Assembly: GCA_947561585.1 (NCBI GenBank)
Contig: CANNZV010001469.1
Coordinates: 173,663 to 237,662 of the forward strand
Source of the DNA: Caprella mutica
Lineage: Eukaryota; Arthropoda; Malacostraca; Amphipoda; Caprellidae
DNA length: 64,000 bases
Direction: 5' to 3'
Shown here: one piece after another, positions 1,624 to 42,956 of the stretch
How positions within the stretch are numbered: the stretch's first letter is position 1
Layout of the letters: each line of letters opens with the position of its first letter
Notes under the pieces: generated by a model
The model's input: the letters and a program-made list of their open reading frames with translations, nothing else
What the model was told of the DNA's origin: nothing
Database searches by the model: none
Program-made: the position numbers and the translations under genes

Positions 1624-2330
1624 GTCATTACTACCCATAGCCATCATAAGAAATTTCTATGTATTATGCTCCCATCTTCTGATCGATAACGTATTTTTAA
1701 AATTAATTATTTATTTTAAACTTAGAAGAATCCTGAAAAAGGAAAATAAAAATGATCATTATTAACATTATTTGATTTACACTCGATATTTATAATTAAT
1801 TGATAATGAAATAACGATAATTAATCATGATTAAAATTTTAAAAATTGTGAATTTTAAATAATAGAATTACAATAAAACATGATTTATTTAATATTTCGA
1901 TGTGAACGTCTAAATATGAAATAATATAAATATACTTGTATACTACATGGTAATATAAAATTAAATAACATACTAAGCTTTGTAATAAAAGTTAATCATT
2001 AATTATTATCTACAATAATCATAGGTACGTCTGCTTAATCATATACGTTATTTTAATCCCGTTAGTCATTTTTTTAAATGCAATTAACTAATTAGAAATG
2101 GAAGTCAGTACTGAATGGCATGATTATAATACGAAATAAAAATGAATTTGCAAACACGTATAATCGACTGAAATGTACGCTTTTGATCTTTTGGTAATTA
2201 ACATTAATTTACTGGGAGGTCACTAGAAATAGCAATGGATTAAAATATGTATAGCTGTAGTCTGATAATTACAATTACTAAAGGCTGAAATAGTCTTAAT
2301 TTAAAACTTTATGTTCTCTAGTTTTATCTT

Positions 2331-3540
2331 ATGGAAAATATATGGAAAATTTAAGATTCTATGGAAAATATATGGAAAATTTAACATTCTATTGAAAATA
2401 TATGGAAAATTAATCATTCTATGGAAAATATATGGAAAATTTAACATTCTATGGAAAATATATGGAAAATTTAACATTCTATGGAAAATATATGGAAAAT
2501 TTAACATTCTATGGAAAATATATGGAAAATTAATCATTCTATCGAAAATATATGGAAAATTTAACATTCTATGGTAAATATATGGAAAATTTAACATTCT
2601 ATGGAAAATATATTGAAAATTTAACATTCTATAGAAAATATATGGAAAATTTAACATTCTATGAAAAATATATGGAAAATTAATCATTCTATGGAAAATA
2701 TATGGAAAATTTAACATCTATGGAAAATATATGGAAAATTTAACATTCTATGGAAAATATATGGAAAATTTAACATTCTATGGAAAATATATGGAAAATT
2801 TAACATTCTATGGAAAATATATGGAAATTTAACATTCTATGGAAAATATATGGAAAATTTAACATTCTATGGAAATATATGGAAAATTAACATTCTATGG
2901 AAAATATATGGAAATTAATCATTCTATCGAAAATATATGGAAAATTTAACATTCTATGGTAAATATATGGAAATTTAACATTCTATGGAAAATATATTGA
3001 AAATTTAACATTCTATAGAAAATATATGGAAAATTTAACATTCTATGAAAAATATATGGAAAATTAATCATTCTATGGAAAATATATGGAAAATTTAACA
3101 TTCTATGGAAAATATATGGAAAATTAATCATTCTATGGAAAATATATGGAAAATTCAACATTCTATGAAAAATATATGGAAAATTAATCATTCTATGGAA
3201 AATATATGGAAAATTTAACATTCTATGGAAAATATATGGAAAATTTAACATTCTATGGAAAATATATGGAAAATTTAACATTCTAGGGAAAATATATGAA
3301 AAATTTAACATTCTAGGGAACATATATGGAAAATTTAACATTCTATGGAAAATTTATGGAAACTATGGAAAATATATGGAAAATTTAACATTCTATGGAA
3401 AATATATGGAAAATTTAACATTCTATCGAAAATATATGGAAAATTTAACATTCTATGGAAAATATATGGAAAATTTACCATTCTATGGAAAATATATGGA
3501 AAATTTAACATTCTATCGAAAATATATGGAAATTTAACAT
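2331..3540. repeat. minisatellite, 30-bp unit, about 40 copies
   Basis: The 30-bp unit is itself two related halves, each with TATGGAAAAT. Variants include TTAATC instead of TTTAAC, TATCGA instead of TATGGA, and one-base deletions at about 2820-2930. The same short series of variants (one beginning at 2521, another at 2911) recurs, suggesting block duplication within the array. Because 30 is divisible by 3, long open frames appear on both strands (2301-2717, 2946-3341 and others). They are by-products, not genes. Confidence 0.95.
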
Positions 3541-5488
3541 TTATGTTGCATCAAATAACATTTTTCAACATTCTGCGAGACCAAAGCAGACTCAATACAT
3601 TTATCTAGACGATCAACCATTTTTCATCACATTCTCTAGAGTAATAATGGACGCAATTATTTCTCGACCTTCACTTTTTCAATTCGGTAATAAGTTGGAT
3701 GATGCACTCAGAATTATATTTCTTTTAGTAAACTCCGATAGAGAAATGTCCTAAGAAATGATCAGGTGATCTAACTGATCAAGAAATTCCAAACTTGAGT
3801 GAAATTAGCCGTTGACGAAATAGAGTCTCTCCAACTGGTAAGATTTAAAATATTTCTTTTCTAGGATTAAATAATAAGCAGTTTTCATTATTTTTCATAT
3901 TTTCATATTCATCGGTACTGAAAATGCTTACCATGTTATTGATGTTTCTGTCCTTGTTGCTTGTTGACGGCCTGAATTGACTTTATTTAAATTATGCAGT
4001 GTACCAATGAAATTCCGCTTACAGTAATTCGTTTGAACTGTTTTTCAAATAATCATGTTCCATATAGAGCTTGAGATCAACAAATTACAGAGATAACAGG
4101 TTTAGTTTTCTCTGTTTCACTGTTGGTTGTGCCATTCTTGGGATGATTAACTATGATTGAAATTGAAATTAGCATTCTATTGATCTGCCTATATAGTATA
4201 TATTCACTATATTGATGTAATATATCAATGTGAGATCTGGGATAGTAAACTGCTAATGAAATTGTTGCTATACATATCTGCCTGTATAGTAATATAATTA
4301 ATCACTATTGTTATGTATAATATCAAATTTAATTAGATGCCTTATCAATTTCATGCGTCTTGGAATAGTAATTAAGAACCTACAGCAAATTAAAATCGTC
4401 TCATTAGGCAGACAATCTGCGCAAACTACATACAGTTATGATTATATTTTGAATTGATTATTCGTATGTTTGACACAAATTTATTTCATTCAATTTCATC
4501 AAAATAAATTTTGATGAAATTCATAAATTTCTGAGATGAAATGAATTATTATCTCGAACTAGGTCGACTGTTACATAAAAAGGTTTTTGAAATTTTATTG
4601 ATATTTCAATTAATATGATAGATTTAGGACTACATTCAAATGGAAATATGTAAGCCGTATCCTTGAAGACACGGCTTGATACTCAAAATAATTATAGTTA
4701 TTTTAAGATAAGGAAGATTCTTGTACCTCAATCGATATATGAGATTATAAGTTGCAAGTATAACTATCTGCAACTTTAATTTATAAGTAACTCCAATCAA
4801 TTTAGTGATTTAACCAAAATATTTTTTTACACTCAAAAGTCAAAAATAGGATTTTATCTAAACTATTAATTTAGAACCCGTAGATATATTATTTTGTTGT
4901 TTCCTCTATGATCTCATCGTATGGTTACCGACAGATTAATTAGGTATAAACCCTACCTCTTTATTTCATCTAAAATTACATTGTATGCTATTACGCGTAA
5001 AAAAAACATGATTAAAAACATAATTTTTAACTAATCTTTATTGATGATTGTTTTATGGATAGCGAGGGACATCATTAAAATTCTTTAAAATATGGAGTGA
5101 ATAGTTCCATTAAAATATATTTGTTTAAAAAAATGCTAATAGTTTGTTCAGAATTCAAAAAATCTACAAAAATATAAAAGATAATGAATCTTGGATATTA
5201 TTCCTGTCAGATTTTTTTTATTTTTATTTTTCATATTAATGAATTTTGACAGTTTTTATATCAGAAAAAAAATAATATTATTTATTTAAATATTAATTAA
5301 TAACTTTTAGACAACTTTCATAACTTTTTTCAATGGAGAACTAAAAGAGCATATTCTTTTCATTGTTACAATTACTGTCTCTTTTTCCTCTAACGAGGCA
5401 GAACAGACGCCATTAATAGTTGTAGAGTTAAAATAAAAGTTCATTTAACAATCTCTGAACTGTGGACTTCTTCACGAAGTTTATTTAG
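3541..5488. other. intergenic AT-rich DNA, nothing supported
   Basis: Stops are frequent in all frames and there is no RNA gene or transposon that I can recognise. A 30-bp perfect palindrome centred near 4507 (AATTTCATCAAAAT and its complement) is the only structured sequence noted. Confidence 0.5.
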
Positions 5489-6449
5489 AAGAACCTGCAA
5501 CACATAGAGGGAACCTGCAACATATAAAGGGAACCTGCAACACATAAAGGGAACCTGCAACACATTAAGGGAACCTGCAACACATTAAGGGAACCTGCAA
5601 CACATAAAGGGAACCTGCAACACATAAAAGGAACCTGCAGAGAACCTGCAACACATAAAGGGAACCTGCAACACATAAAGGGAACCTGCAACACATAAAG
5701 GGAACCTGCAACACATAAAGAGAACTGCAACACATAAAGGGAACCTGTAACACATAAAAGGAACCTGCAACATATAAAGGGAACCTGCAACACATAAAGG
5801 GAACCTGCAACACATGATGGGAACCTGCAACACATAAAGGGAACCTGCAATACAAAGAGAGAACCTGCAATACAAAGAGAGAACCTGCAATACAAAGAGA
5901 GAACCTGCAATACAAAGAGAGAACCTGCAATACAAAGAGAGAACCTGCAAGCCACAAAGGGAACCTGCAATACAAAAAGAGAACCTGCAAGCCATAAAGG
6001 GAACCTGCAATACAAAGAGAGAACCTGCAAGCCATAAAGGGAGCCTGCAATACAAAGAGAGAACCTGCAACACATAAAGGGAACCTGCAATACAAAGAGA
6101 GAACCTGCAATACAAAGAGAGAACCTGCAATACAAAGAGAGAACCTGCAAGCTATAAAGGGAACCTGCAATACAAAGAGAGAACCTGCAAGCCATAAAGG
6201 GAACCTGCAATACAAAGAGAGAACCTGCAAGCCATAAAGGGAACCTGCAATACAAAGAGAGAACCTGCAAGCCATAAAGGGAACCTGCAATACAAAGAGA
6301 GAACCTGCAAGCCATAAAGGGAACCTGCAATACAAAGAGAGAACCTGCAAGCCATAAAGGGAACCTGCAATACAAAGAGAGAACCTGCAAGCCATAAAGG
6401 GAACCTGCAATACAAAGAGAGAACCTGCAACACATAAAGGGAACCTGTA
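5489..6449. repeat. minisatellite, 20-bp unit with a 40-bp higher-order zone
   Basis: The basic unit is GAACCTGCAACACATAAAGG. The left part (about 5490-5850) is mostly that unit. The centre runs the variant GAACCTGCAATACAAAGAGA in tandem. The right part (about 5940-6420) alternates that variant with GAACCTGCAAGCCATAAAGG, making a 40-bp dimeric repeat. Minus-strand open frames of up to 316 codons here are repeat artefacts. Confidence 0.95.
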
Positions 6450-15300: not shown

Positions 15301-18300
15301 TGTAAGGAAGAAAATATCAAATACAAATACGAAATATTTCAAAATATTACCAAATTTGATCATTTATTTTGAAATATTTATTTAGATAATCTATTTTAGA
15401 TAATTTATTTTGAATTATTTGATAATTGAAATTACTCTTAAAATAGTTGTAAGAAAGTAAATATTAAATACATATAAGAACTATTTCAAAATAATACCAA
15501 ATTTGATAATTTTTTTTTAATGGAATGATATCGATAAATTACACAACTATGAAAATAATTGATATGTTAATGAATTAGTGTTACAAAAAGATTATTGTTT
15601 GATTTAATAGGGAAGTCCATGATATTTATACATTTAAACTCTAATTCACTAATAATAATATTAATTTTATTCAAAAATTTATTCTATAAATAAAATTTAT
15701 ATTTCAAAATAAATTATAGTTTAGAGTTCAAATTTTCATATACCGATATTAAGAAAAAAGGAGAAATCAGTCTTCATCAAGTTATATGCAATGATTCATT
15801 AACATAGTTATGATGTTGTTGAGCTATATAATCATGCTAATTTAATAATGTCAGTATATTAATGATTCAACTTTGATTCAAAAACTAACAAGGTACACAT
15901 TGAATTAAGTGCAAACTTTAGTTATTCTGCCTAAGAGTTTTAATGAAGAGAGATGTGTCTCTAAATCCATGGAAATTATACCCCAGGACATGTTATCTTC
16001 AGTACTAGCTTATCAAAGGAAGTTTTAAACATTTAAACTGATGTGAATGAAAGAGTTTTCTTTTCTTAATTTTTGAACATCTCGCTTCCAGATGGTACAT
16101 AGACATACAAATTTTAATCCGATTATGAAGTATTTCAAGAATTAAAACGTATAAATAATTTGTTTAACGCTTATTTCATCTAAAGAATTTTAATACCCTG
16201 AAGCGCGAAAAAAAGACCATAAAATAGATTTTACTGACAGAAAATGTACACAAATTAAATAGCGCAATTGCTTCATATAGCCTGATAATTCACACCTCTC
16301 CTATAATTAGAGAAAACAACAAAAGCGTTTTCCGACTCTGAATCTGTCCAATTATTGCCTTTACCGGCGGACTATTTTGGCACTTGTGCTATTTTCAGCC
16401 TCTTTTCGATTTTTCACCCTCGAGGGTCTTAAAAAATTCTACGACTTTCAATAAGAAATCACATTGATCTTACACCCAATTTTAGTTTAATTATTTTAAA
16501 TCTATTAAAGAGTAATGAAAAATATAACAAAGCCATGAAAAAATAAAATCATATACTACCATGCAAATGTTAATTCATTATTGTAAATACTATTAAATGT
16601 AAAGACCAATATATATTAGTAATTACATTAAATATTAGGAATAAGAATTAATTTATTTTACTCACTAATAGATAATTTATATTATTCAGTTCTCCATACA
16701 TGCAATAATCTTCTTATCCGTACCATTTTGAAAGCGTCGGCTGAGTTATCTACTGGTCCTGTTGAATCGATAATCTGCAGAATGTGCGTGTACTGCTCTT
16801 TGATGGGGTAGTCCCAGACACGGTATTTACTCTGGTCAGTCGTACTGTTCAGAGTCAACTCCTTCCACACTCTACAAAATGTTTGAGAAATGGATACGAT
16901 ATATAGTAATTCATCATTGAAAAACAACCAATATGAATTAATACAAAAACTGACTTTATTTTCTGACAAAAAGGCATTATACCTGGGAAATTTTATGAAT
17001 ATCCCAGGGAAGAAAGATTCATTCCTGGGATATTAAGGGAATAACCCAGGATAAATCCTTCTTGCCAGGGCTGAAACAGTATTCTAAACTGTGTACACTC
17101 TGTAGCCTTGACTCATCGCTTGAGTCAACGCTGGCAAAATTGCAATAATTGAATCTTTTTCTTGATTGACTCTACCTGAGTCAATCTGACTATGAATTAT
17201 GAGTCAATATGACTCTTGTTTTTGAGTAAAATATTAGGATGAGTCAAATTGACTCACATTTTTGAGTCAGTGTTGGGTCAAACTGGAAACTTAAATTTTG
17301 AGTCAATTTGACTTTTTTTTTTATTAGAATAATTTTTATTAGAATAATTTTTATTAGAATAATTTTTATTAGAATAATTTTTATTAGAATAATTTTTATT
17401 AGAATAATTTTTATTAGAATAATTTTTATTAGAATAATTTTTATTAGAATAATTTTTATTAGAATAATTTTTATTAGAATATTTCAACATTAATAAGCAA
17501 AAAAATCTTAGTACAACTTCTCAAATTTCAATAACAGTCAGGTGTATTTCAAGTAAGAATGCTTGCTTTTATGGTAACGAAGATATTCAGTTAAAGTTAG
17601 TCAGTAAACAAGAATGTTTAAGCAACAACACGGACATTTTCTTGCAAATTCGGGTGATAAAAAAGGCTTTCACTTTTGCCTTGTCGGGTTATTACTTCAG
17701 TTTGAATTTATTTGATGAAAATTTGAATTAAAACCGATTTTATTCCTATTTTAGCAACAAGAATAGAAAAAAATTGAAAACTAATTGAAACATCGAATTA
17801 AAACCATAATTATTTTTCAATGCATGCTAAATATGTTAGGCAAGAACATAAATACATGCAATAATTAAGAATGAAATTATGAATACAAGTATTTAGGAAA
17901 ACATATCAATGTGAGGAAATCTTGCAAAAGATCAAAGAATAAAAACACAAATTTTCCATAATCAGATGCAGTGTTAAGGATATAAAATATAACAGTGATA
18001 ATATTTGCATTTCTACAATTCAAATCTAATAAATGAAGGGTCAAATGAGTAGTGTGTGTTGGGTGCAATTTTGCATTATATCATTTATAACAAAATAATT
18101 ATTCATTCATGGTAAAAAGACAATTATGTAATAATTTTCAAGAATAAGTTTAATACAATAAGTTTGCCATCAGTATAAGAGATTTTATACCCCAATATAA
18201 AATTTATGATTCTTATATGGATAGAAATTATTTTTTAAACCATTTTCACCCTTCAAATATACATATATTGAATGTTCAATAAAACATGCGATGAATTGTA

Positions 18301-21300
18301 AAATAGAAAATTAAACTAATCTGGAAGTGATATAGATATTTAATTCAATGTTGGTGGATCAAAAGCACAATCACAGTAACCATCCATTGTACCTGAAAAG
18401 TTCGTCCTCAGCCGTAGCCATATTAAAGAAATACTCGTAAATGGACGAGTCTTTTGTCGTTGTGAACTTGATTTTAGCCTGCCTTGCCAGAGCCTCTAGG
18501 GACTGCACTGGAGACTTGGTATTGAAAACGTCGCAATTACTAACAATTCATTTAGTCGGGGTCTAACGTCTGTTTCGGAACCAAAGGCCATCTCACAGAT
18601 GTCATATGGGAATTAAATACAAGGGGAAAGGAGAAGCAGTCACAAATGAAAGCGGATCGATGAACAAAGTCATCTACCGGTCGGTGACAATGTTCACTGA
18701 TGTAGAAAAGCTACTCCGTGAATGCAGTCACTTACCAAGGAATGTGACGTAATGGGACACAAGCACTGGTGACTGCACTCACGGATGGAAGAGGAAAATG
18801 AAGAGTTGATACTAAATGAAACCAAGGAGAAAAATTTATAGCAAAAACTTGATTAAAATGAAGGGCTTATTAAGTATCCAAATCCAGCTAGAAATGTTTG
18901 TTCACATATCGATTTGATGATTGAAATAGTTCGTGTTTTGGCTTACATAGATACACATTAAAAATGCATTAGCGTTGTGGCCTTGAACTTGAAAGTTCAC
19001 TCACTAACCTTAGGCTGGGTCGTGCAAACCTGCTCACACTAAAACCCTTCAACAAAATCTTTACGAAACAATTTAATGATATTTTTTCATAAAAATCTTT
19101 ATTTAATATTTACACATCTATTCGTATACCTATCAGATCAATGATTGTCAAAATAAACAACAAGAAATAAATGTTCCATATAGGTATTACTGTTATATGA
19201 ACTGCATGGGATGGTTTTCGGTACGAAGCGAAATGTGTGCACTTTAGCACACTCTGTGCATCTCATGCTGGAGAGACCCCTGATACACGCCTAATATATT
19301 TAAATAAACAACTCATAATATGAGTTTCTAACCATTTATCACCTTCGTTTTTGTCTATAGTCATTGTTAATAATCATATTGATGGGGCCTTTTTAAAAAA
19401 AAAAAAATTGAAAAATGATGCGTCATGAAAGGAGGGCATCAAAATCGAATTAGAATTACATGTATTAGTATTTTTTAATGAAAGCTGGTACGCACGAACC
19501 AGTTCCTAGGTTGTTAGGGTTAAGTAAAAAATGAAATATAGAATCAGAAATTCATGAGATTCAAGAGATGTTGAAACAAAATATGTAAAAATCAGTTATT
19601 TACAGTTTAGATGAAACAGTATAGGTAAATTACAAGGATAGGTGATCATAAAAATATTTACATGGAACTTCATAAGGGATACTATAAAATGGATAATATT
19701 ACCAGGTTTCACAATAGATGGTGAAATGTATTTATATACATGTTCTTCTTATAAATATGTATAGTGCTTTAATGTGATATAGCAAATATGTACACAAGAT
19801 TTCACTACTAAACTCGATGCACAACACATTCCCTCTAATTTGGTAGACTATACACTCAGAATTAAAAAGAAGAAGTTTTCAAAAATAGAGTATATACATT
19901 CTACAAAAAGTGCATGTATGTATATACCGATAAAGCTCTTCCTCGGCCCCTGCCATATTTTTGAAGTAATTGAGGATAGCGGAAGATTTCACAACAGTAT
20001 AGTTGATTTTACTTTGGCCAGCTAGTTCCTCGAGGCTGCTTACAGGTGTCTAATTCATCCGCAACAACAACAAAAATCAAAAAATTCAAAAATTCAAAAA
20101 AGAGAAAATCATCAAAAAATATAAATTTAACTGATCCATCAAAAAGTAGATTGATTTTACTATAAAATATATCTCAAAATTCAGGTCTAATGTTATGAAA
20201 AATGATTTCAAATTGTAATTGTAGGAGATAGAAAAATCCTTCAATAACTTTAGACAAAATAAATAGAGTTCTCATCAACCATTCTCCCAAGTATCTCTTT
20301 TTGAGAGTTGGGAGACATAAAATGTTACCTGCATCCTTTCCACAGTGAGAAAAGCAGCTAAATTGGCAGTGAATGTAGCAAGCATCAGGACCACAAAAAG
20401 CCAATAGGCAGCCACTAGAATTCGACCGGAGAGAGCCTTCCGAAAAGACCATAAAGAAACATTACCATGGGAATACGTCAGCTCTATAAATAGGATGGTA
20501 ATGGCAGAGATGTCATGGAAGGCTTAGAATGGAAATATAGACTCACTTTAGGAGCTTCACCGCCACCCTGAGGAGTGAATGATGTCAAAGCGAACCAGAA
20601 GCTTTCCTTCAGGGTGAATTTCCTACAAGCCTCGGCATATTTCTCAGAGTTGTTTTGGGCAGAATAAGGAGAATATCTGTCCAATAGCCACAGCATGATG
20701 CCTGCGAATGATGGAGAAGTTCAGAAGCCATTTACATAGTTTAAGGAAAACCTTTTTAATATTGTATATTGAACCATGGATGAAAAACTAAAAAATCAAA
20801 TAGGTGTTTACATATGGAAGGATATTATTTATAATATAAAAGAAATTGGTTTATAATATTTTAGATTAAACCGTGTACGATAGATTGAAATAGGTATATG
20901 AAATAGAGAACAATATTTCTTATTGTTTTCATTTCATAATTAAAAGAGATTAGGAATATACAGTTTATAATCCCAGCTCACACATGATATTACACACACT
21001 GACATTGAGTTCGAATGCAGCATCTGTAGCTATAGGTAACTCTATTCATCCATTCACGTGCTCGATAATGAGAGCTTGTTTGTCAAACTGAATGTGTAAT
21101 GAGCAATAATTCACGCTGCTAATGAGCATTCGTTGCAGAGAAGCTCGATGTTCAGCACTACTTAAAATCTAATATCAGATCTTCATAACAAGGGAGAGAT
21201 ACTGTACTATTCATTTTACGTGAGAGCTAAAGTGAATCCTAAAAAACTTAAAATTTACAGCTAGTTTCAAATCATAATGAATCAACCTTTTATAACCTAT

Positions 21301-27300: not shown

Positions 27301-30300
27301 TAGATCGTAGCTCTCAGCGAAATTTTGGTTTCGAATAATCCTAATTAATAACTATGAGAAAGCTTTTGGCCTATGAAATTCCCTCTTTTTTATTGATATT
27401 TCCACAAAAACTTATATTATGAATTGGTCTACTATGAATATAAACAATAACGCAAGTTGCACCCATGATATAGTAAGCATCAAAGATAATTATTCAAAGA
27501 GGTTGTCTCAGAATATAGAGTAGGAAACAAACACCAATCCTAAGAGTATTGGCAGATATTTCTAATGCCATGTCAGCATTGGGGGAAATAAATTACACTG
27601 AATGAATTTTGTGACACGCTATACTGACGGAAAAGAATGTCATTAAAATATTCTAATGTGTATTATTTCTGTGTCTTAGTTACTCATTTTATAATTAACA
27701 TATTTATTTAACCCCTAATATTATAAATTGAGTTATAATCGAGGAACCCATATAAAATAAACAGATCAATTATGTATTCATCTGCTATGGAGCCACTAAA
27801 ACGTTTTCTCTGATTAGCTTTCAATTATCCATATAAGTAAATATCATTTAAATCACACATTTCAGATAAAACAGTATGTAATATAATACGCAAAACCGCA
27901 CATCTCAAATAAAAAACTAAGCTAATAATACCCAATAAAATAACAGACAATATTGCGACAGAAAATCTATTATCAAAACTTCCTCTGAAGACTCAAAGAA
28001 CCTCGTGAATGCATCTGACACCACTCAAACAGAAAGGAAAGTTCTATCCATAAGTTAAAATTTGATCGGCAGCAACCCCCAAAGGAGGTGAAGGAGAGTA
28101 TGTCGCGACAGAACCATTCACTCTGACGAATTGTTTGTCGTCCATCCAGGTCAAGATAAAGATTGTAACAGTATATCTGTTCTACTTTACTATTAGTACT
28201 TTGTGATAAAAAATTGAAATACGGATGATGATGTGCACTTTTATTCTCGTTAATTAGGTGATAGAAAAGAAATATAATAATATGCAAAAATCAAAAATGT
28301 AACAGAATAGAGAAAATTCAAAATAGATGGGATACAAAAACCCGGTACACTGAAAAGATTCTTCCTAGTCACTACACGGTACATTGAAGAGATTTTTCCT
28401 AGCCACTACACGGTACACTGAAAAGATTCTTCCTAGCCACAACATGGTACACTGAAGAGATTTTTCCTAGCCACTACACGGTACACTGAAGAGATTCTTC
28501 CTAGTCACAACACGGTACACTGAAAAGATTCATCCTAGTCACTACACGGTACACTGAAAGATTCTTCCTAGTCACCACACGGTACACTGAAGAGATTCTT
28601 CCTAGTCACAACACGGTACACTGAAAAGATTCTTCCTAGTCACTACACGGTACACTGAAAAGATTCTTCCTAGCCACTACATGGTACACTGAAAAGATTC
28701 TTCCTAGCCACTACACGGTACACTGAAGAGATTCTTCCAAGCCACTACATGGTACACTGAAAAGATTCTTCCTAGCCACTACATGGTACACTGAAAAAAA
28801 TCCTTCCTAGCCACTACACGGTACACTGAAAGGATTCTTCCTAGCCACTACACGGTACACTGAAAGATTATTTCCTACGTGTTTATGGAAAATTTAATAT
28901 CATATATTACTCTATAGACAATTTGCAAATATATCTTGAAAAAATTATTAAAATATAATCATACATACGAAAATATCATATCAAGATTTTTATGTAATCA
29001 AAATAGTAACTGATAATAACTTTTACCATGATTTAAAAACACATCATTTAACTTTAATTATAATATGTACGATACCAGTTTAATAATTTCATACAATTAA
29101 TTATTAATCATGTGACCTAATATAATATCGTATATAAAGATTTTTATAATTATATATAAAGTGATTCAGAATATATTAAACAGAGCAATCATATAAAACC
29201 AAAAATAGAATTTAAAAAAAATAAAATGGATATCAACAAATTTACGTTCGATCCATTATATTAGTTTGAAAAAATAATTCTAATAATAGGTCCTACTAAT
29301 ATTTATAATATCCTTTTTCATGTTGAATGACACTTTTAGAACAGTATCACAATAATTATTTAGACTCTTCGGCATCTAAAGAAAAAAAGAACCCATAGAA
29401 AACGATTTAGAGGAGTAACTTAATTATATAATATTGAACATACATTATATTATATTTCAATGCATATCAAATAAATTATAAACAGCAAGAAGAAGGTTTC
29501 ATTTATAGAAAAAAATAATAGGATATTGTTATCAAATATATCTGGTTACAGTTTATAAATTAAATCTATTTAAAATATTTCAATCTGTACGCAGGGTCAC
29601 GCAGGATTGTTCGAAATATTTCATTATTTGTATAACTACATATTCCACTACTGGTGATGATTCTTTCATATAATCTTAAAATCATACTCTAAAACGATAA
29701 TATGATAAAATATTCAAAGAACGTTTTGTTAAATACGGCGGAATTATCTCAACGAATTACCATTTGTGAGTTGAAACCTATTAGGAACTCTCCTTCAGAC
29801 TTTATTAACAGTACTGGCTACTCAAAGACGGCAGTCTATCAAGTCATGGCCAAGTTTGATGCGGAGGGAAAAATTGAAAGAATTCGACAGAGTCTCCGGA
29901 AATTTCGATGGCGAACCAAAACTTTTCTACCGAGAGTGAAAATGTCGTTGAAGGCTGAACCACATCAGTCGATGTCACAACTGACCAAATGACGCAATGT
30001 TAGCCAGAGTACCACCATCATCAGAGCAGTCAAAGAAGCTCTTGGGATGAAGTCTTACGTTAAAATACGACGAAACATTTTCACTTACTCTCAATAGCCA
30101 TCAGGGTGACCTAAGCCTTTCAATGATTTCAAGAATAAAGGATATGTTCCTATCATGGCTTCCGAGGTTCCGAATCGTCAACCATAACGAGGATCCCCTG
30201 CCTGCGACACAACACTAACTTCTCTTGTGATTTCTCTGAAAAAATTTGCAGCCATGGCAAGATGATGTCTCCACATTTCATCAAAGCAGGACATAAGATC

Positions 30301-33300
30301 GAAACAGCAGACTATGATTCAGAATGATGACAGAATCAATTGCATAATAGGTTTCATTTGAAATTAAGAGAAAATGTACCTACTAAATGATTGATTCAGT
30401 AAGAACACTCTTTTCAAAATTAATTGTTCGATTCAAATTTAATTTTTAGAATAACATTTAAGCGGCTAAAGCAGAAAATTCGGTCATCGACCAAATTTCA
30501 GACATCTTGAATTCAACCCTTCATCAGAATTGAAACATGGCTTTTGTATATTAGCATTATATAAATAATTTACAAAGGAAACCTACATAAGAAATGGGCT
30601 TGTAGTTTAATTTTAATTAATAATTCATATTAAATAAAGTGAAAGACCGATACCGAAGAGCTGCATAGCCCCCTTTCTTTTCATGTGTATATAGCACCAC
30701 CTCGCAGTGTTTCTTTGTTAAGCCGTCAAGTATTCATAGTGCCTCATACTTCTTTATTAATGGCATACTATATTAGATTTGACGTGAAATTATAACTGTT
30801 AGCATTAGGTAGATCGATATCTATTTGCACTCACGCAACATCGCAACTCTTTACTTTTAATTCAGGAACAGGCAAATTCCGTTAAACATATTTGACACAG
30901 GAAGTTTCTAATTCACATTGCCCTGATTTCAATGAATTTATAATTATTGTATAAATAATATTATACTTAGTTAAAATATGGTGAATTCCTTTCATAATTT
31001 CAACGTGATTGAGTTAAATTCGTCTATCCAATGTTGAAATTAATCCTATAGGCAGATATTTAAAAAAAAGTAACAATAGAATGATAGAATTTTTTTTAAA
31101 AACCACTGAAGAGGTTCGTTACCGATACGAAATAATATATATTGTATCGGTATCGTTTCATATTGATAGATTTTAGGTTTTAAATCAACTGATAGGTCAT
31201 AATTTATAATCCGTATAACTTACCTGAAAAATTCCGGATCTGTTCCTGTGATTACGACAGTCCATCTTGAATCTCGGGTGACGAAACCCGAAGTGACAGC
31301 CTGGAATAGAGATTCGAGAAAACAATCTAAATATTGGGGAAATGATCTTTTTTATATTAATGCATAAATACTGATATATTAAATCAAGCTGAAGCTATAA
31401 AAGTCATATAAATATAGGTTGAATAAATATTAGGTGGAACATACAGGTACAACTTTAACTACGGGCTGTACTTAGGCCTAGTACATATAATTAGGTGATT
31501 CTTTGCGCAAAAAAGTGACTAATGGGATACTATTATGCTAATATATCAGTTCATTTATAATTCCTCTATATTTCATAACTGGACAAAATCATATATATCA
31601 CAAGGAACTTTAATTTTGTATTTTACTGAGGCTGTATTCCTTGAAAACTTCCCTTTTTATTCCAAAATTCAATAAATTTGTAATTCACATATACAGAAAT
31701 TCAATAAAGGTTTTGGGTCCATCAAATAAAAGATAAATTTCAAATAGTTCCCTTTAAATGTTACAGCATAATATAGTAATAAAGTTACAGTTCCTACCTT
31801 ATTGAACAGGTCGTTTGTCTCTCTACCACTGCCAAATAAGACATAGTGGGCGGGAGATGGTCTCATGTTCTTCAAAACTGCAGAACTGTTCTTTCCAAAC
31901 CCGACCAGAACTATAACTCGGACAGACGATCCCTCGACAAGATAATATAACGCTTGGTCCAGTTCTGATACAACCGGGAAAAACGGTGGGAAAATGGTCA
32001 ACATATTATTAGGTATATTGTAATATAATTTTTAATTTTCAAATCACATAGTAGGATAACTTACGAATTATAGGATAAGTTACGAATTATAGGATAAGTT
32101 ACGAATTATAGGATAAGTTACGAATTATATAGGATAAGTTACGAATTATAGGATAAGTTACGAATTATAGGATAAGTTACGAATTATATGATAAGTTACG
32201 AATTATAGGATAAGTTACGAATTATAGGATAAGTTACGAATTATAGGATAAGTTACGAATTATAGGATAAGTTACGAATTATAGGATAAGTTACGAATTA
32301 TAGGATAAGTTACGAATTATAGGATAAGTTACGAATTATAGGATAAGTTACGAATTATAGGATAGTTTTTCATTTTTTGGTCAATCAAGAAAGTATATAA
32401 TTCAATAGGGTGCTTGTTATTTTAATTGGTATCCATGATACTCGTAAGTATCAAGGATACCAATTAAAATTACCAGCTAAAATATAGAAAATAATTCTTA
32501 TATGACCGAAAATTTGGAAATGTCCGATAATTTGTAATTAAAATTCAGCTGAAATATTTTAAGAATATTCTTATATAACAATTAGTTATTTCGAGCTGTT
32601 TTGAAATTAGAGTCTTTTAGATTTGGTCTCACCATCTTCTTCCGAAAATACCAGAGCAGCGTCAGTGGCATTTCTATTTTGCATCAATTCGTCTACCGCA
32701 GCCATGTGTTGGTATATGGAGACCTTCAAGAGGGGAAGCAACATTATTTATAGTTACGTAGTTAAAATGAATTAAAAACATTATGTTGCTCCAATTATAA
32801 TTAGTATTCCGATCTTAGCTATGAAAACGAGTGAAATCAGGTAAATTCTAAAAGGAAATAAAATCACCAAATTTTATTTTTGTATATCATTTCAATAATT
32901 CTTCGCTGGCTGTTATGTACCATAGAAATTAATTTTTTTAATCATAATGCTTCACAAATTTTCGTGTTCCTCTCTAAACTATATTTGGCTTATATGTCAT
33001 TACAAAGATGGAAATATGAATTTTCCAAAATTTATTGGAAATAATCATTTAAATTTTTTATCAATACAAACCTGGCTATGAACGTATGGGATTCCAAAAA
33101 TCTTTGCAGTTTTCATTCCGTAGTTCCATCCACCAGCTGTGATATCGAGAACCAAACTTGTCCCAGTGGCCATTGATGCGCACACTGTTTGAAAAAATAT
33201 TATAATGAAAGAGTAACTTAGGTACAATGAATTATTGGTTACTTCATAACTCATGGCCACTTCATAACTCAGGGACACTGATAGTTTTCTATGATTAAAA

Positions 33301-34781
33301 TCTTGGAGAAAACTACGGTGTTTGAGGGAAAACTAGGATGACATTTTTGAGGTATATCGTTTTCTGTAATTTAAACATAGAAAATACTTCATAACTCAGG
33401 TCCTTCATTACTCGAGTGCTTCATAAGGAAGAACTTCATAACTCAGGAGTTTTATTGTATTCCCTACTGTAAAAATTGAAAACCTATCCCTTAAGCGGAT
33501 ACCATTATTTGGAGGACACTAGATAAACTTTTTTATAAATCTGATAGGATTCAAGTTGTTTCTATGTACTTTAAAATACATTAAATAATAATATTCTAGC
33601 AGAAAGAATCATTCAAAGTAATGTATGCCACATAACGAATTTATATTTTGTAGCTAACAATATAAAATTCTTCGCAAAGGATATTTGACTATGTAGGAAG
33701 CATTAATTAAGGAACAGTGATTCTTGTACAATGTGCATACATATTTTTAAAATAGTTCACCAAACTAATATTGATTAATAAAAAAATTGTCCAACATATG
33801 TCTTGGTCGTTATATGATTAATACTAGGCAATTATTGTCGTTCGATATCTGAAATCTCACATTTATTTTCAGCTGTCGTTTCGTCTTCAATGGATATCAT
33901 CGCCACCTCCAATTCGATGGTCATATCGAGAGCTGCTTGCGCCTCCGTGACTCCATTAGCCAACCAAGTGCCAGCTTCAGCCAGACTTTCATCCACGATA
34001 CCAACTGAAATGAACATTTTGAATGAGAAAAAAAATTAGCATTTTCACAAAAAGATTAGCATTTTCACAAAAAGATTAGCATTTTCAGGAAAAGATTAGC
34101 ATTTTCAGTAAAAGATTAGCATTTTCAGTAAAAGATTAGCATTTTCAGAAAAAGATTAGCATTTTCAGTAAAAGATTAGCATTTTCAGTAAAAGATTAGC
34201 ATTTTCAGTAAAAGATTAGCATTTTCAGAAAAAGATTAGCATTTTTAGTAAAAGATTAGCATTTTCAGTAAAAGATTAGCATTTTCACAAAAAGATTAGC
34301 ATTTTCAGTAAAAGATTAGCATTTTCAGAAAAAGATTAGCATTTTCAGAAAAAGATTAGCATTTTCAGAAAAAGATTAGCATTTTCAGTAAAAGATTAGC
34401 ATTTTCAGTAAAAGATTAGCATTTTCAGTAAAAGATTAGCATTTTCAGAAAAAGATTAGCATTTTCAGTAAAAGATTAGCATTTTCAGTAAAAGATTAGC
34501 ATTTTCACAATAAGATTAGCATTTTCAGTAAAAGATTAGCATTTTCAGAAAAAGATTAACATTTTCAGAAAAAGATTAGCATTTTCAGAAAAAGATTAGA
34601 ATTTTCATAAAAGATTAGCATTTTCAGAAAAAGATTAGCATTTTCAGTAAAAGATTAGAATTTTCATAAAAGATTAGCATTTATGACTTTCATTTTATCT
34701 TTATGTCAAATACTCACCTATTTTAAGCTGGGCGACCGCTCGAGCAATGAAGACGAATAGTAGCAGAAACCGAAACTTCAT
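9131..34781 (-). CDS. Ir25a: Ionotropic receptor 25a (IR25a), complete split gene, 20 coding exon positions
   Basis: IR25a is the most conserved ionotropic receptor of protostomes. It is a plasma-membrane cation-channel subunit of the iGluR superfamily that acts as co-receptor with tuning IRs in chemo-, thermo- and hygrosensory neurons. Twenty coding exons join without any phase conflict into 848 residues. Features in order: signal peptide 1-17, amino-terminal domain to about 360, S1 (about 363-470) with APLTMTSEREEVIDF and the glutamate-type Arg452, M1 (about 491-510), pore loop FWFALTSFTPQGGG (Gln548), M3 with TANLAAFLTVERM, S2 with Asp695 in AFIHD and a Cys707/Cys764 pair, and M4 (about 781-803). 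LDRYSPYSAQNN and FAEQPYA are IR25a signatures as I know the family. Length is somewhat below the insect proteins (about 900-950, from memory). Position 15 has two alternative exons. Exon parts are listed separately. Confidence 0.95.
10148..10395. repeat. diverged tandem repeat with ATGACCTTGACC motif (Ir25a intron 19)
   Basis: Three imperfect units begin TAAATGACCTTGACC or close variants. At least two end with CAATTTGxTTxxATACTTTTTxxAGTTAT, at about 70-110 bp spacing. Units of this type occur widely in invertebrate genomes as I recall. There is no open frame of note. Confidence 0.6.
10630..10751 (-). CDS. Ir25a: Ir25a exon 19 (S2 end, second disulfide Cys)
   Basis: Acceptor GTTTTACAG, 122 nt, phase 2 in, phase 1 out, donor GTTAGT. 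It encodes ILELQKERYFESLLAKFWNS, then SAKGDCPNNDDSEGITLQSL. Cys764 in 'GDCP' is the partner of Cys707. Confidence 0.95.
10855..11745. repeat. diverged direct duplication inside Ir25a intron 18
   Basis: Segment 10855-11250 matches 11375-11745 in order and orientation. Shared blocks include AATTATCCTA, GTGTCTTAGTAC, GAATAGTxAACxGC, TTTTGATGTATTC, TTACxTAAAATG and ATATCCAATA..CGAAGCCT. Between the copies lies a CTTAGTCTAG 10-bp repeat (11253-11307, about five units), and a T-rich run at 11038-11093 interrupts the first copy. Confidence 0.75.
11253..11307. repeat. 10-bp tandem repeat CTTAGTCTAG
   Basis: Five to six near-perfect units (one CTTAGTCTAA variant) lie exactly between the two copies of the larger duplication. 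Confidence 0.85.
11746..13054. other. intronic AT-rich DNA (Ir25a intron 18)
   Basis: No exon or element is recognised. The opposing small open frames at 12571-12783 and 12716-12922 have no family motif and no convincing splice borders. Confidence 0.4.
13055..13275. repeat. dispersed repeat 'CACTATAGAGG' family, copy 1
   Basis: It has inverted blocks (TATAGTGAATGCAGTG...AGTAAGTAGCCTCTATAG and CACTATAAAGGCTACTTCCT...CATTCACTATACAGGA) around AGAAAACTGATGGCCATTT. The same blocks recur at 46105-46495 and 51685-51880. The hairpin layout suggests a non-autonomous element. Confidence 0.6.
14145..14258 (-). CDS. Ir25a: Ir25a exon 18 (S2 lobe, first disulfide Cys)
   Basis: Acceptor TCTTCCAG, 114 nt, phase 2 in and out, donor GTGAGT. 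It encodes YEIYQDCFLLEVGEPFAEQP then YAIAVQQGSYLQEEISR. Cys707 pairs in the family with a cysteine in the next exon. Confidence 0.95.
15004..15059 (-). CDS. Ir25a: Ir25a exon 17 (micro-exon with the ligand-binding acid)
   Basis: 56 nt, phase 0 in, phase 2 out, acceptor AATTTCAG, donor GTAATA. It encodes VLENTDGELAFIHDAAEI. Asp695 in 'FIHD' corresponds to the acidic residue of S2 that binds the ligand amino group in iGluRs. It is too short for ordinary frame searches. Confidence 0.93.
16195..16425 (+). repeat. dispersed repeat family, copy 2 (pair of 6490-6715)
   Basis: Same orientation and landmark order as 6490-6715. Here it lies within the intron between exons 16 and 17 of Ir25a, the other copy lies outside the gene. 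Confidence 0.65.
16724..16871 (-). CDS. Ir25a: Ir25a exon 16 (S2 lobe)
   Basis: Acceptor TTTTGTAG, 148 nt, phase 2 in (completing Arg after either 15a or 15b), phase 0 out, donor GTACGG. It encodes VWKELTLNSTTDQSKYRVWD, YPIKEQYTHILQIIDSTGPV and ends ADAFKM. 'WDYPIKEQY' is a strong IR25a match. Confidence 0.95.
17318..17485. repeat. minisatellite, 15-bp unit, about 11 copies
   Basis: A perfect array of TTATTAGAATAATTT in the intron between exons 15b and 16. On the transcribed strand each unit has CTAAT and no AG dinucleotide. Uninterrupted open frames on both strands (17278-17493) result from the unit length being a multiple of 3. Confidence 0.95.
18393..18514 (-). CDS. Ir25a: Ir25a exon 15b (alternative S2 exon)
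   Basis: Acceptor CAATACCAAG, 122 nt, phase 0 in, phase 2 out, donor GTACAA. It encodes SPVQSLEALARQAKIKFTTT, then KDSSIYEYFFNMATAEDELF and a split Arg codon (AG plus A from exon 16). It has the same length and phases as 15a, 24 of 41 residues are identical, and there is no stop or frameshift. Including both exons would shift the frame, so each mature mRNA should carry one. Confidence 0.92.
18572..18832 (+). repeat. dispersed repeat, inverted partner of 52168-52410
   Basis: It begins TTTCGGAACCAAAGGCCAT and includes TAGAAAAGCTACTCCGTGAATGCAGTCACTTACC (written here in short: GAAAAGCTACT, GTGAATGCAGTCACTTAC) and GACACAAGCACTGGTG. The minus strand of 52168-52410 carries the same blocks. It is less AT-rich than its surroundings and looks like the relic of a once-coding mobile element, but stops interrupt all frames and no protein family is recognised. 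Confidence 0.65.
19928..20049 (-). CDS. Ir25a: Ir25a exon 15a (alternative S2 exon)
   Basis: Acceptor GATGAATTAG, 122 nt, phase 0 in, phase 2 out, donor GTATAT. It encodes TPVSSLEELAGQSKINYTVV, then KSSAILNYFKNMAGAEEELY and a split Arg codon (CG plus A from exon 16). It matches the IR25a segment just after M3, aligned with 'YGTLDSGSTKEFF' of GluA2, which contacts the ligand. It duplicates exon 15b. Both donor and acceptor are weak, as often seen for regulated exons. Confidence 0.92.
20329..20436 (-). CDS. Ir25a: Ir25a exon 14 (M3 gate helix)
   Basis: 108 nt, phase 0 in and out, acceptor TTTTCGGAAG, donor GTAACA. It encodes SGRILVAAYWLFVVLMLATF then TANLAAFLTVERMQ. The SYTANLAAF gating motif of iGluRs reads TFTANLAAF here. 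Confidence 0.97.
20547..20701 (-). CDS. Ir25a: Ir25a exon 13 (M1 end and pore loop)
   Basis: Acceptor CATTCGCAG, 155 nt, phase 1 in, phase 0 out, donor GTGAGT. It encodes GIMLWLLDRYSPYSAQNNSE, a stretch with Cys529, and the pore loop SFWFALTSFTPQGGGEAPK. This is the most diagnostic IR25a exon. The following intron is only 110 bp. Confidence 0.97.
20702..22954. other. Ir25a intron 12, no internal feature recognised
   Basis: AT-rich intron without a repeat array or a recognisable element. The minus-strand open frame at 21835-22026 has no flanking splice sites that would keep phase 1 of the gene. Confidence 0.5.
22955..23053 (-). CDS. Ir25a: Ir25a exon 12 (S1-M1 linker and start of M1)
   Basis: Acceptor TTTATTTCAG, 99 nt, phase 1 in and out, donor GTAATT. 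It encodes a charged linker VIRKRERKEHLFKFLKVLKV, then EVWFSIIAALVIT, the first half of M1. Confidence 0.94.
23537..23636 (-). CDS. Ir25a: Ir25a exon 11 (S1 ligand-binding Arg)
   Basis: Acceptor TTTTACAG, 100 nt, phase 0 in, phase 1 out, donor GTGAGA. It encodes MTDLVVAPLTMTSEREEVID then FVAPYFDQSGISI. Arg452 in 'TSERE' is the position that binds the ligand alpha-carboxylate in iGluRs, and it is kept here. Confidence 0.95.
23637..24954. other. Ir25a intron 10, no internal feature recognised
   Basis: A low-complexity A/T-rich intron. I saw no second copy of exon 10 or 11 in it. Confidence 0.5.
24955..25155 (-). CDS. Ir25a: Ir25a exon 10 (S1 lobe)
   Basis: 201 nt, phase 0 in and out. The acceptor is CCGCAG and the donor GTGCGT. 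It starts SRPWFYKDPNPGD, continuing the strand of exon 9 (compare 'EPPFVM' in other iGluRs), then has GYSGYCVELALRLSQMMEF and KNGTWNGLVADLANG. The frame stays open upstream to 25317, but only this AG keeps phase and alignment. Confidence 0.93.
25502..25699 (-). CDS. Ir25a: Ir25a exon 9 (linker into S1)
   Basis: Acceptor AAATTCAG, 198 nt, phase 0 in and out, donor GTAGAT. Residues 305-370: EVAKWPKMGWNEEKMQMMPS opens it, 'IGDWTTQRGIQL' is the family's 'G.W....GL' block, and 'KRFFKIGSIQ' is the first strand of S1. Confidence 0.93.
26142..26288 (-). CDS. Ir25a: Ir25a exon 8 (amino-terminal domain)
   Basis: 147 nt, phase 0 in and out. It encodes IPRDLIINSVKTVAAALKSS, then QQNIAADCKNIETAEPANVA and ends PFITALQS. 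The acceptor is GACAATAG. The donor is GTAACC, weaker than most in this gene, but phase and codon use support it. A plus-strand open frame over the same bases is a shadow. Confidence 0.88.
26575..26755. repeat. short minisatellite, about 26-bp unit, about 7 copies (Ir25a intron 7)
   Basis: Imperfect units of AAAATCTGTTGATTAGAAAT plus CAGTTC. Read on the transcribed strand, each unit contains CTAAT and AACAG, resembling a branch point and acceptor. Confidence 0.85.
26830..26938 (-). CDS. Ir25a: Ir25a exon 7 (amino-terminal domain)
   Basis: Acceptor TTGTTGCAG, 109 nt, phase 2 in, phase 0 out, donor GTGAGT. It encodes GDAIPAATTVTLMSPANQVC then CTVMAKTDDCECSGVV, with a cysteine-rich C-C...C-x-C pattern. 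The intron before it (26939-31223, 4.3 kb) is the longest in the gene and carries a minisatellite and a transposase relic. Confidence 0.92.
27007..28342. other. first part of Ir25a intron 6 next to exon 7, no gene supported
   Basis: Mostly AT-rich. A less AT-rich patch at 28044-28185 has an open minus-strand frame but does not fit the phases of the gene (see rejected items). Confidence 0.4.
28343..28876. repeat. minisatellite, 34-bp unit, about 16 copies (Ir25a intron 6)
   Basis: Units contain GGTACACTGAAAAGATTCTT followed by CCTAGCCACTACAC, with AAGA/GAGA and CTACA/CAACA variants. On the transcribed strand each unit reads AATCTTTTCAGTG, close to a 3' splice site. Confidence 0.95.
29702..30345 (+). 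pseudogene. Tc1/mariner-like transposase relic (in Ir25a intron 6, opposite strand)
   Basis: The frame from 29702 to a TGA at 29987-29989 encodes a homeodomain-like helix-turn-helix: 'LSQRITICELKPIRNSPSDF', 'GYSKTAVYQVMAKFDAEGKI' and a basic stretch. After the TGA the same frame continues 'NVSQSTTIIRAVKEALGMKS' and 'YVKIRRNIF', typical of the second DNA-binding motif, to a TAG near 30096. A later segment (about 30240-30330) reads 'GKMMSPHFIKAGHKIETADY', the 'MPPHFF..G' block of the catalytic domain. In-frame stops and the loss of most catalytic sequence between these blocks show a dead copy. I saw no clear terminal inverted repeats. Confidence 0.75.
31224..31300 (-). CDS. Ir25a: Ir25a exon 6 (amino-terminal domain)
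   Basis: Acceptor TATTCCAG, 77 nt, phase 0 in, phase 2 out, donor GTAAGT. It encodes AVTSGFVTRDSRWTVVITGT then DPEFF. 'SRWTVVITG' corresponds to the 'RW.LVFTD' strand found in IR25a proteins as I know them. Confidence 0.92.
31798..31964 (-). CDS. Ir25a: Ir25a exon 5 (amino-terminal domain)
   Basis: Acceptor TTGTATCAG, 167 nt, phase 1 in, phase 0 out, donor GTAGGA. It encodes LDQALYYLVEGSSVRVIVLV, then GFGKNSSAVLKNMRPSPAHY and ends NDLFNK. The pattern 'RVIVLVG' followed by 'HYVLFG' matches two core strands of the domain. Confidence 0.92.
32053..32362. repeat. minisatellite, 19-bp unit, about 16 copies (Ir25a intron 4)
   Basis: A nearly perfect array of GGATAAGTTACGAATTATA. Just beside it (32413-32470) is a hairpin with arms TTTTAATTGGTATCC and its complement. 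Confidence 0.95.
32633..32723 (-). CDS. Ir25a: Ir25a exon 4 (amino-terminal domain)
   Basis: 91 nt, phase 0 in, phase 1 out, donor GTGAGA. It encodes VSIYQHMAAVDELMQNRNAT then DAALVFSEED. The acceptor (TGAAG) has a weak pyrimidine tract but phase and sequence continuity fit. Confidence 0.88.
33072..33184 (-). CDS. Ir25a: Ir25a exon 3 (amino-terminal domain)
   Basis: Acceptor TTTTTTCAAACAG, 113 nt, phase 1 in, phase 0 out, donor GTTTGT. It encodes CASMATGTSLVLDITAGGWN and then a segment ending GIPYVHSQ, typical of the domain's 'LDITAG...IPYV' strand-helix-strand. Confidence 0.9.
33861..34004 (-). CDS. Ir25a: Ir25a exon 2 (amino-terminal domain)
   Basis: Acceptor TTTCAG, 144 nt, phase 1 in and phase 1 out, donor GTGAGA. 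It encodes residues 22-69, beginning VGIVDESLAEAGTWLANGV, the first strand and helix of the periplasmic-binding-protein-like amino-terminal domain. Reading past the donor reaches a stop 10 codons later, which supports the splice. Confidence 0.9.
34031..34680. repeat. minisatellite, 20-bp unit, about 32 copies (fills Ir25a intron 1)
   Basis: Unit AAAAGATTAGCATTTTCAGT with GAAAAA, ACAAAA and GTAAAA variants. It covers about 650 of the 713 bases of intron 1, leaving some 26 bases at the acceptor and 37 at the donor. The transcribed strand contains CTAAT in every unit and no AG. Confidence 0.95.
34718..34781 (-). CDS. Ir25a: Ir25a exon 1 (start codon and signal peptide)
   Basis: ATG at 34781-34779 opens MKFRFLLLFVFIARAVAQLK, a compact secretory signal with a hydrophobic core and an A-V-A site before Gln18. 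The exon ends in ...AAAATAG followed by the strong donor GTGAGTA, phase 1. Any 5' UTR upstream is not resolved. Confidence 0.9.
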
Positions 34782-40509: not shown

Positions 40510-42956
40510 TTATGGATTCCCCGTTGAGTTTCAATCTTTTCAATCAAAAAGTAATTAACTCAATGACAAAATGAGTTCACAACTTACAATGGTGAGTTAC
40601 TAATTCTATGTAGAATTGTATTAATTATAAAAAATTGGTGATAACGGTGTTCAAAGAAAGGTTATATTCATGCCGTCTTTTAATTGATAAAAAATGGTAA
40701 ACAGCGCATAAGGTTTTTGAGATGTCTTTACCGCATAAGTTTCTATCGGTACAGTGCTATGTCATGTTTCTACGGATGATTTTTTATGATAACTCTTCAG
40801 TGATTGGTTGGATGAATCAACTGCTGGCGGAACACTAAACCTTAGTGCTCCGCCCCCTTTTTGTCTGAGTTAGCAACCTTTAAAACATAATCTTTAAAAG
40901 TTATCCACAAGGAACAATAATTTTAAAATTATATTCTTAGTAGTAGTAACCTTTTAAATTGTAACCTTTATAGATGCCACCCGCTAATAATTCTATTAGC
41001 CAAAAATTGTGTTGCAAAGAATTATCACTCATACTTTAAAATATTGAAAAGTATTAGTATTCAAATTAAAAGGAAACAGTTTTGATTTTTAAATAACAAC
41101 GAGGAATTGACAAGGTTCCTAACGTGACTTTTGTTCATTGAATTATGACGAGTCCGTCTTGTAATGCAGAATTTTAGAAAAAAAAATAAAAAATGAATGC
41201 AGAAACAATTAATTATTAATGTAAAATATCCTCACCAAATGTTAGAATTAGATCTATTTGTCGGGAAATTATTTTTGATTGAAGAAGGTTCAAATATACT
41301 GTTTGTGATTTATTAATAATTGTAGTTTAATTATTATTTTTCGGTGTAATTAATCTGTTAGTCCTATAACCTTTCTTTTTAAATTGTCCCAAAGTATGAT
41401 AATTCCAGTAGTCAAAACAGAGCGTACGAGACTTATATACCAGCTATTTACGTATGAATTATAATTTTTTTATGATTAGGTATTATTCTCAATAATTTTA
41501 AAACAGAAAGTTATACTTATTTTTGTAAAAAAAAATCACTAGATATAACTCCCAGCCCGAATAATAAAATAACTTGATTTTTAAGATACATACAACGTCA
41601 AAAGTTTTACATTTCGCTTGTTTGCAACAACAACGTCGTAAACACAAAAACACGTATTTTAGAGTTATCTATTTAGACTTATAAATCATAAAATGCTGAT
41701 TATTTTGGTAAAAAATTTATCATTGTAACTCAAAAATATACCGCTAGAGAGGCTAAATGTCCTAACGATATACCATTAAATGTACGTACATTGCAACTAC
41801 TAAAATGCCTCTCCTGAAAAATAGTTTTTTTTTTAAGTTATGACAGTGTTCTCGCAAACAAGTGATTTATCATAGAAAGCTTTGGAATTACGCTTCCGTT
41901 AATTTTACTGGAGTGTGCCCTCAAATAAGCGAACTCTTCATAGAAAATTGCTGAATTTTCCATTCGTAAAGCACATCACCTACTACATTATATGGTAAAC
42001 TGAGATAGATATATATTATTCATTAAACATTTTATCATTATGCTTATTTACATTATTTAATATTAAATTGTTTTTAAATTAACTTTTATTTCTTTTGTAT
42101 TCGGTGTAGTGATGGCAGTTGTTGTTTCCATAGTATCAAAAGTTGGCCTATTGTTTTCAATTATTTCGATCCACAATTATGTTCCAGCTCTTTCTTTCCT
42201 TTAAATTTCTAAAAGATGTATTACTGATAAAATTATTTATTATAATTTGCTTTCATCTTGAAAATTCAGAATACATTTTCAGATTATAAAAAAAGGGAAA
42301 TTTTCTAAGGTGTCCACAATATTCATAATTGTAGAGAATCATATATTATCACAAAAAAGTTATTACTGCAGTATACCCTTTAACATGTTTCGTCCACATA
42401 GAAAACTACAATGCTTGGTATCATAGAAAATTGTAATACATTATATGGTAAACTAATCTAAATTATATTCTTGAAAATATGATATTTAATTAATTTGAGA
42501 ATTTGTTAAATACTTTTTGAGGATATGTTGCAATAAATTAAATGGAACTGTATTGAAATCAGCCTATTAATTTTATTCAGCGTCCTGGGTAGATTTGTTG
42601 TATAAGTTTTAATATAAAAATTAATATGAAATCCCTCTTTTGCTAAATTTTAAGGATTCATAACAATTGTATAATTATTAAAACCAATGCTGTACAAATA
42701 ATTCTTAGTAGTTATGTATGTTTATTTAGGTATGTTTGGTATGTTCATTTCTGTAAAGGTATAGAATAAAGTTATAGAAATAAAAAGTAGATTTACAAAT
42801 TATGCGAAATAATTTATATTAACGATATTCTAATTAGGTACCATCTAGTATATGATAATCAGCCTTTCAATTTTATCCGATGAAATATATCTAAATAGAA
42901 TAACAGCTTACTTAGGTAATTCGTAAAACCAGCATATCTCAGTTTTCACCAATTCA
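40510..42956. other. intergenic AT-rich DNA, nothing supported
   Basis: Stops in every frame, no array and no recognised element. Confidence 0.5.

Follow-up and report, generated by a model that had tools for sequence, protein, structure and literature searches.

The window analyzed here is a stretch of 64,000 nucleotides of DNA from Caprella mutica (contig CANNZV010001469.1, positions 173,663 to 237,662 of the forward strand), and a single gene of interest runs from start to stop codon on its minus strand at positions 9131-34781 of the window. This gene has 20 coding-exon positions with GT-AG intron borders throughout, and its open frame encodes 848 residues in 848 codons with either version of exon 15 described below. 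The original prediction that the gene is IR25a is borne out by its closest sequence relatives, which among the matches listed are crustacean and insect IR25a proteins, and by the Pfam domains Lig_chan and Lig_chan-Glu_bd in its translation. The N-terminal domain of the translation gave no Pfam match at 1e-3; exons 1-9 align to decapod IR25a with an identity of 31-60%. In a quick tree the protein without exon 15 is placed within Malacostraca (SH-aLRT 98), a placement that speaks against the salmon louse as its source. Specifically, over the C-terminal part the nearest relative is that of the amphipod Hyalella (243 of 301 residues identical, or 81%), and eight decapod, krill and stomatopod rows show 74-78% identity over 289-292 columns. 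Note that Hyalella and Penaeus japonicus likewise share 81% over this part. Judged by its sequence, the gene is a malacostracan IR25a with a slight lean towards the peracarids. Several IR25a-like proteins (P0006, P0017, P0022, P0123 and others) carry the name 'Ionotropic receptor 8a' in public records.

The window also contains many long and clean minisatellite arrays with units of 15-34 nt and up to 53 copies of a 21-nt unit. These are located at positions 2330-3545, 5491-6447, 17318-17481, 28343-28877, 32052-32364, 34030-34682 and 42964-44085. Four of the arrays fall in IR25a introns, and the 21-nt array at 42964-44085 is the site of a GC skew of -0.56 (positions 42001-44000). No Rfam family and no tRNA was detected when the window was scanned for them.

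The region that concerns us lies between exons 14 and 16, with all features on the minus strand. Exon 14 (20329-20436) codes for M3 and the gate, ends in TVERMQ and is a common exon upstream of the choice. It is followed by an intron of 279 nt (20050-20328), exon 15a (19928-20049), an intron of 1413 nt (18515-19927), exon 15b (18393-18514), an intron of 1521 nt (16872-18392) and then exon 16 (16724-16871), a common exon downstream of the choice. Exon 15a, whose translation begins TPVSSLEELAGQSKINYTVV, codes for the start of the S2 lobe and groups with 10 other a-type segments; exon 15b, whose translation begins SPVQSLEALARQAKIKFTTT, codes for the same segment and groups with seven other b-type segments. 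Both exons are 122 nt long with open frames, are entered in phase 0 and left in phase 2, and encode identical residues in 23 of 40 full codons, which becomes 24 of 41 residues when the shared split-codon arginine is added. This arginine codon is completed by the first base of exon 16, with A joining CG after 15a and AG after 15b. The coordinates, strand, length, phases and intact frames that had been predicted for the pair agree exactly with the gene model, and a recount also returned the predicted 24 identical residues. The GC content of exons 14, 15a, 15b and 16 is 44-48% and that of the three introns between them is 25-33%.

A chance likeness of 15a and 15b is excluded by a six-frame scan of the 64-kb window, where 15a as the query scored 112 (BLOSUM62) with 15b and 28 with the next match. 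With 15b as the query, the next match after 15a scored 22, and when the other 19 coding exons were scanned in the same way there was no second match above 31 in the window and no duplicate of any of them. The claim that the 122-nt length forces a choice also holds. Specifically, a transcript with both exons spliced in meets a stop five codons into 15b, a transcript with both skipped meets a stop 11 codons into exon 16, and in both cases the protein would lack S2 and its last membrane helix. As in mutually exclusive pairs, the two are neighbouring homologous exons that match in length and phase, and the transcripts that include both or neither cannot encode the protein. That 15a and 15b are alternatives is supported by this reading-frame arithmetic.

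Splice-site strength was ranked with a leave-one-out weight matrix for which the gene's 18 other sites served as the training set, each site being placed among 20. Among acceptors, that of 15b is the weakest of 20 and that of 15a the fourth weakest; among donors, that of 15a is the second weakest of 20 and that of 15b the ninth weakest. The weak donors and acceptors originally ascribed to both exons are therefore seen for both acceptors and for the 15a donor, but not for the 15b donor.

Regarding how double inclusion would be avoided, steric exclusion of 15a-15b splicing was ruled out because the intron between the two, which has GT-AG borders, is too long at 1413 nt. With regard to exclusion by docking/selector RNA pairing, as in Dscam, there are 19 inverted repeat pairs between positions 16700 and 20450, counted within this one genome. 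RNA folding also predicts a stable hairpin (z -6.5) at 18715-18785 on the minus strand, in the intron upstream of 15b, which sits inside a dispersed repeat of ~259 nt (18573-18829) with a 79% identical copy on the opposite strand at 52152-52409. Because of its location inside this repeat, the hairpin is probably not a conserved switch, and RNA docking via the hairpin is improbable on the same grounds. The 150-nt stretches around 15a and 15b exhibited no unusual folding (z -0.2 and 0.5, respectively), and there was no sign in the window of a specific exclusion device. The reading frame together with nonsense-mediated decay would be enough to enforce the choice at the protein level, with decay expected because the early stops have junctions downstream.

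We looked for a- and b-type segments in a set of 239 proteins (window translations apart) drawn from the best 120 of 928 matches, 4 matches, and the best 120 of 202 matches, from a protein database clustered at 90% in which a species normally shows one form and second isoforms are hidden. At least 18 of the 239 listed proteins, from 15 species, are malacostracan by name, and among the matches listed all 18 of these carry an a-type segment (10 proteins), a b-type segment (six proteins) or both (two proteins). Of the 239 proteins listed, eight have a strict b signature and 12 have a strict a signature, all of them among the 18 malacostracans. Also among the matches listed, the b-type is found in decapods and in the amphipod Hyalella, where the segment is identical to 15b at 38 of 41 residues, and the a-type is found in decapods, a krill and a mantis shrimp. 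Neither the stomatopod nor the krill, each with one representative among the matches listed, showed the b-type. Named peracarid relatives in these matches show the b-type in Hyalella and the a-type in none, 15a of the window being a possible exception. Searching relatives for the pair, which had been put forward as a check of the original prediction, has in this way turned up both types in decapods and the b-type in an amphipod.

Several of the malacostracan models bear on how the pair is annotated. Homarus P0003 and Portunus P0190, both automatic predictions, contain the two types in one model, a then b, with a filler between them that reads like intron. For Penaeus vannamei, the a-type protein P0224 ends just past a and the b-type protein P0156 begins within b, and their contigs have an identical listed size (744053). 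Automatic annotation can in other words merge the two exons into one model, as in Homarus and Portunus, or break the gene in two at this place, as in Penaeus vannamei. Among the matches listed, the models that bear an isoform X1 or X2 label contain the b segment in Cherax, Eriocheir and Portunus and the a segment in Homarus, Penaeus japonicus, Macrobrachium, Palaemon and Oratosquilla; these labels hint at further isoforms, the names leaving the nature of the difference unstated. Taken at face value, the Homarus and Portunus models would mean that a cryptic intronic splice site joins both exons into a longer receptor that has the segment twice, a reading to which we assign a negligible probability. 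Their joining stretches (28 and 57 residues) are mutually unlike and read as translated intron, and an extra copy plus filler should break the fold of the compact D2 lobe. Moreover, the segment motif is present twice in only three of the 239 proteins among the matches listed, namely P0003, P0190 and Papilio machaon P0028. The Papilio protein, whose copies are identical over the repeated part, was read as a model or assembly artefact.

No copepod-like segment among the matches listed has a strict a or b signature. The copepod-like proteins P0191, P0194 and P0209 have T at position 19 with the rest of the b signature absent, and P0191 and P0194 have TT at positions 19-20 as in the b-type. P0191 and P0194 were considered as a second copepod exon and rejected; they are read as coming from other species, their flanks being different from those of the VV segment P0198.

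The history of the two types was analyzed with an unrooted tree of the 41-residue segment with 40 rows (11 a, 8 b and 21 other). The a-type rows fall on one side of a branch (96/88) and the b-type rows fall on one side of another (99/96), so that each type has a common ancestry across Malacostraca. A tree that forces 15a and 15b of the window to pair is worse by 36 log units (p-AU 0.0006), which rejects the idea that the duplication took place recently in the lineage of the window. Forcing a and b together is also rejected for Homarus (p-AU 3e-5) and for Portunus (p-AU 0.004). These tests likewise speak against independent recent duplications in several crustaceans with a cross-species likeness that stems from convergence. 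Tandem exon duplication is common, and the moth Plutella too has the S at position 4 that characterizes a; however, besides the rejection of sister copies in all three cases, the a rows and b rows have no common residue at nine of the 41 positions, and we regard convergence as extremely unlikely.

Relative to the other rows, a looks derived at positions 4, 11, 22 and 27, with R retained at 11 in the a segment of Portunus. The b-type looks derived at positions 8, 13, 17, 19 and 40 (barnacles too have F at 40). The order inside the a and b groups is weak and unsure, the segment being only 41 residues long. As judged from these alignments, one duplication before the decapod-peracarid split would explain the data. 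It may even go back further, insects having retained a copy that is b-like and barnacles and copepods one that is a-like, a direction in which the unrooted tree leans with a support of only 76/78.

Both copies are also conserved. Exon 15a has 78% identity to a-types from eight species, and 15b has 83% identity to b-types from five species (80% without Hyalella), which is about the same as the 72-81% identity to relatives of exons 16-19. Exons 13 and 14 are above either exon 15 copy with 85% and 97% identity, respectively (exon 14 in comparison with 13 malacostracan relatives). The original prediction had named absence of the second copy from relatives together with relaxed evolution as the outcome that would count against it; what we find is that both types are present among the relatives and that the two copies are conserved roughly like the S2 exons downstream. 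Judged by protein-level conservation, both copies are kept by selection. This bears on the possibility that one exon only is used and that the other survives as a remnant duplicate undergoing decay within an intron. Such a view could draw on the 15b acceptor and 15a donor being among the weakest sites of the gene, yet both exons group with segments of their own type from other Malacostraca, both are conserved to the level of exons 16-19, and the model contains a in some species and b in others. We consider use of a single exon very unlikely.

The differences between the types are also long-standing. Across the 11 a rows and eight b rows, S/A at position 13, Y/F at position 17 and Y/F at position 40 are fixed, and residues are never shared at position 19 (V or I in a, T in b) or at position 27 (Q or N in a, E in b). 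The persistence of these type-specific residues argues against the choice being mainly a switch for IR25a level via decay products with only a minor protein difference. That double inclusion and skipping both give early stops fits such a switch, as does the observation that flop-flip double-inclusion junctions of human AMPA receptors reach up to 12% in the available portion of PMC8257547; overall, we view a mere level switch as highly improbable. Taking these lines of evidence together, 15a and 15b very probably constitute an old, functional mutually exclusive pair in IR25a, from which we infer that both are used in RNA, that they exclude each other in vivo and that their exchange has a functional effect. 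The higher identity of exons 13 and 14 and the weakness of the 15b acceptor count against this reading.

As to where this exchange falls in the receptor, the first 32 residues of the segment give a gapless alignment to GluA2 directly after M3. By the GluA2 numbering that we assume here, the alignment starts at what we take to be S631, position 19 presumably corresponds to T649 and position 20 to L650, and positions 24-25 presumably correspond to S654-T655 at the start of the agonist-binding helix. Position 19 is T in all eight b-type rows and V or I in all 11 a-type rows, and position 20 is T in six of eight b-type rows and L in 10 of 11 a-type rows, with V in 15a of the window. Position 25 varies within both types and gives no separation of a from b. 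Because positions 19-20 differ by type in the GluA2 alignment, part of the swap would appear to lie where the lower lobe faces the agonist.

We propose that each mature mRNA would be either 14-15a-16 or 14-15b-16, giving rise to two full-length IR25a proteins. These would have different residues at 17 of the 41 positions with which the S2 (lower, D2) lobe begins, directly after M3. The exchanged segment would cover the strand and helix start involved in holding the agonist. An mRNA with both exons or neither would stop before the last membrane helix and be directed to decay. A cell that chooses one form could thereby have an IR complex with altered closure on ligand and altered coupling to the gate, or with an altered partner preference. 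The likeliest consequence is a change in ligand response or in gate coupling, and partner choice or trafficking may be affected. Malacostracan IR25a could further be a two-state co-receptor, where a splice switch that predates the separation of decapods and peracarids determines, cell by cell, the D2 lobe carried by all IR complexes of a neuron, a proposal that we hold tentatively and rate at slightly below an even chance. If true, a single exon choice would retune gating, or the range of ligands, across the entire IR repertoire of a neuron at the same time.

IR25a is usually treated as one subunit. If it has two ligand-lobe forms, then studies of crustacean smell by expression, knock-down and reconstitution have averaged two receptors. 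By analogy with flip/flop, the 15a/15b pair would provide a simple and directly testable handle on the co-receptor's own ligand domain. In the spiny lobster, IR25a is reported in every single olfactory-neuron transcriptome in the portion of PMC7510291 that was available.

In the literature on IR25a, ionotropic receptors and flip/flop, we found no description of the 15a/15b pair in the accessible portions of open-licence papers, supplements aside. Specifically, the splicing and isoform passages in the available portions of PMC5459451, PMC9692914, PMC7510291, PMC6497305, PMC7067487, PMC6150509, PMC10390513, PMC12082890, PMC11939437, PMC13372173, PMC11302349, PMC6720082 and PMC4074156 contain none on IR25a splice forms. 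The original statement that IR25a isoforms of this kind are undescribed needs qualification with regard to the copepod Eurytemora affinis, for which 'an alternative-splicing arrangement in IR25a' is mentioned, its place and kind being absent from the main text (Robertson 2017, PMC5714493). This is an alternative arrangement noted in the same gene and also in a crustacean (PMC5714493). The Eurytemora IR25a record P0158 is labelled 'isoform X2'. Mutually exclusive exons in the ligand lobe of a receptor are a kind of arrangement that has been described before. Within the literature searched, what appears new is that they occur in this gene and at this place in the lobe, and that they are conserved across Malacostraca.

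Among known systems, mutually exclusive exons occur in the ligand-binding part of arthropod cys-loop channels, namely Rdl exons 3 and 6, nAChR alpha6 and GluCl exon 3. There the exon choice likewise retunes a ligand-gated channel, although the receptor fold and gene family are unrelated. A closer likeness is to flip/flop of the AMPA receptors (GRIA1-4), which like 15a/15b is an exon pair in the S2 part of the ligand-binding domain of an ionotropic glutamate receptor. In both systems the exon length is not a multiple of three, being 115 nt for flip/flop and 122 nt for 15a/15b, and in the available portion of PMC8257547 double inclusion or skipping of flip/flop shifts the frame with removal by nonsense-mediated decay expected and no further exclusion mechanism described. 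Frame and decay would suffice for 15a/15b in the same way as that portion of the paper proposes for flip/flop (PMC8257547). However, although 15a/15b would work in a similar way, it was rejected as a homologue of the flip/flop pair, given that the GluA2 alignment places it directly after M3 and not before M4. Flip/flop precedes M4 at the end of S2 and alters 8-10 of 38 residues, whereas 15a/15b follows immediately on M3 where S2 starts, alters 17 of 41 residues and belongs to IR25a, a chemosensory co-receptor.
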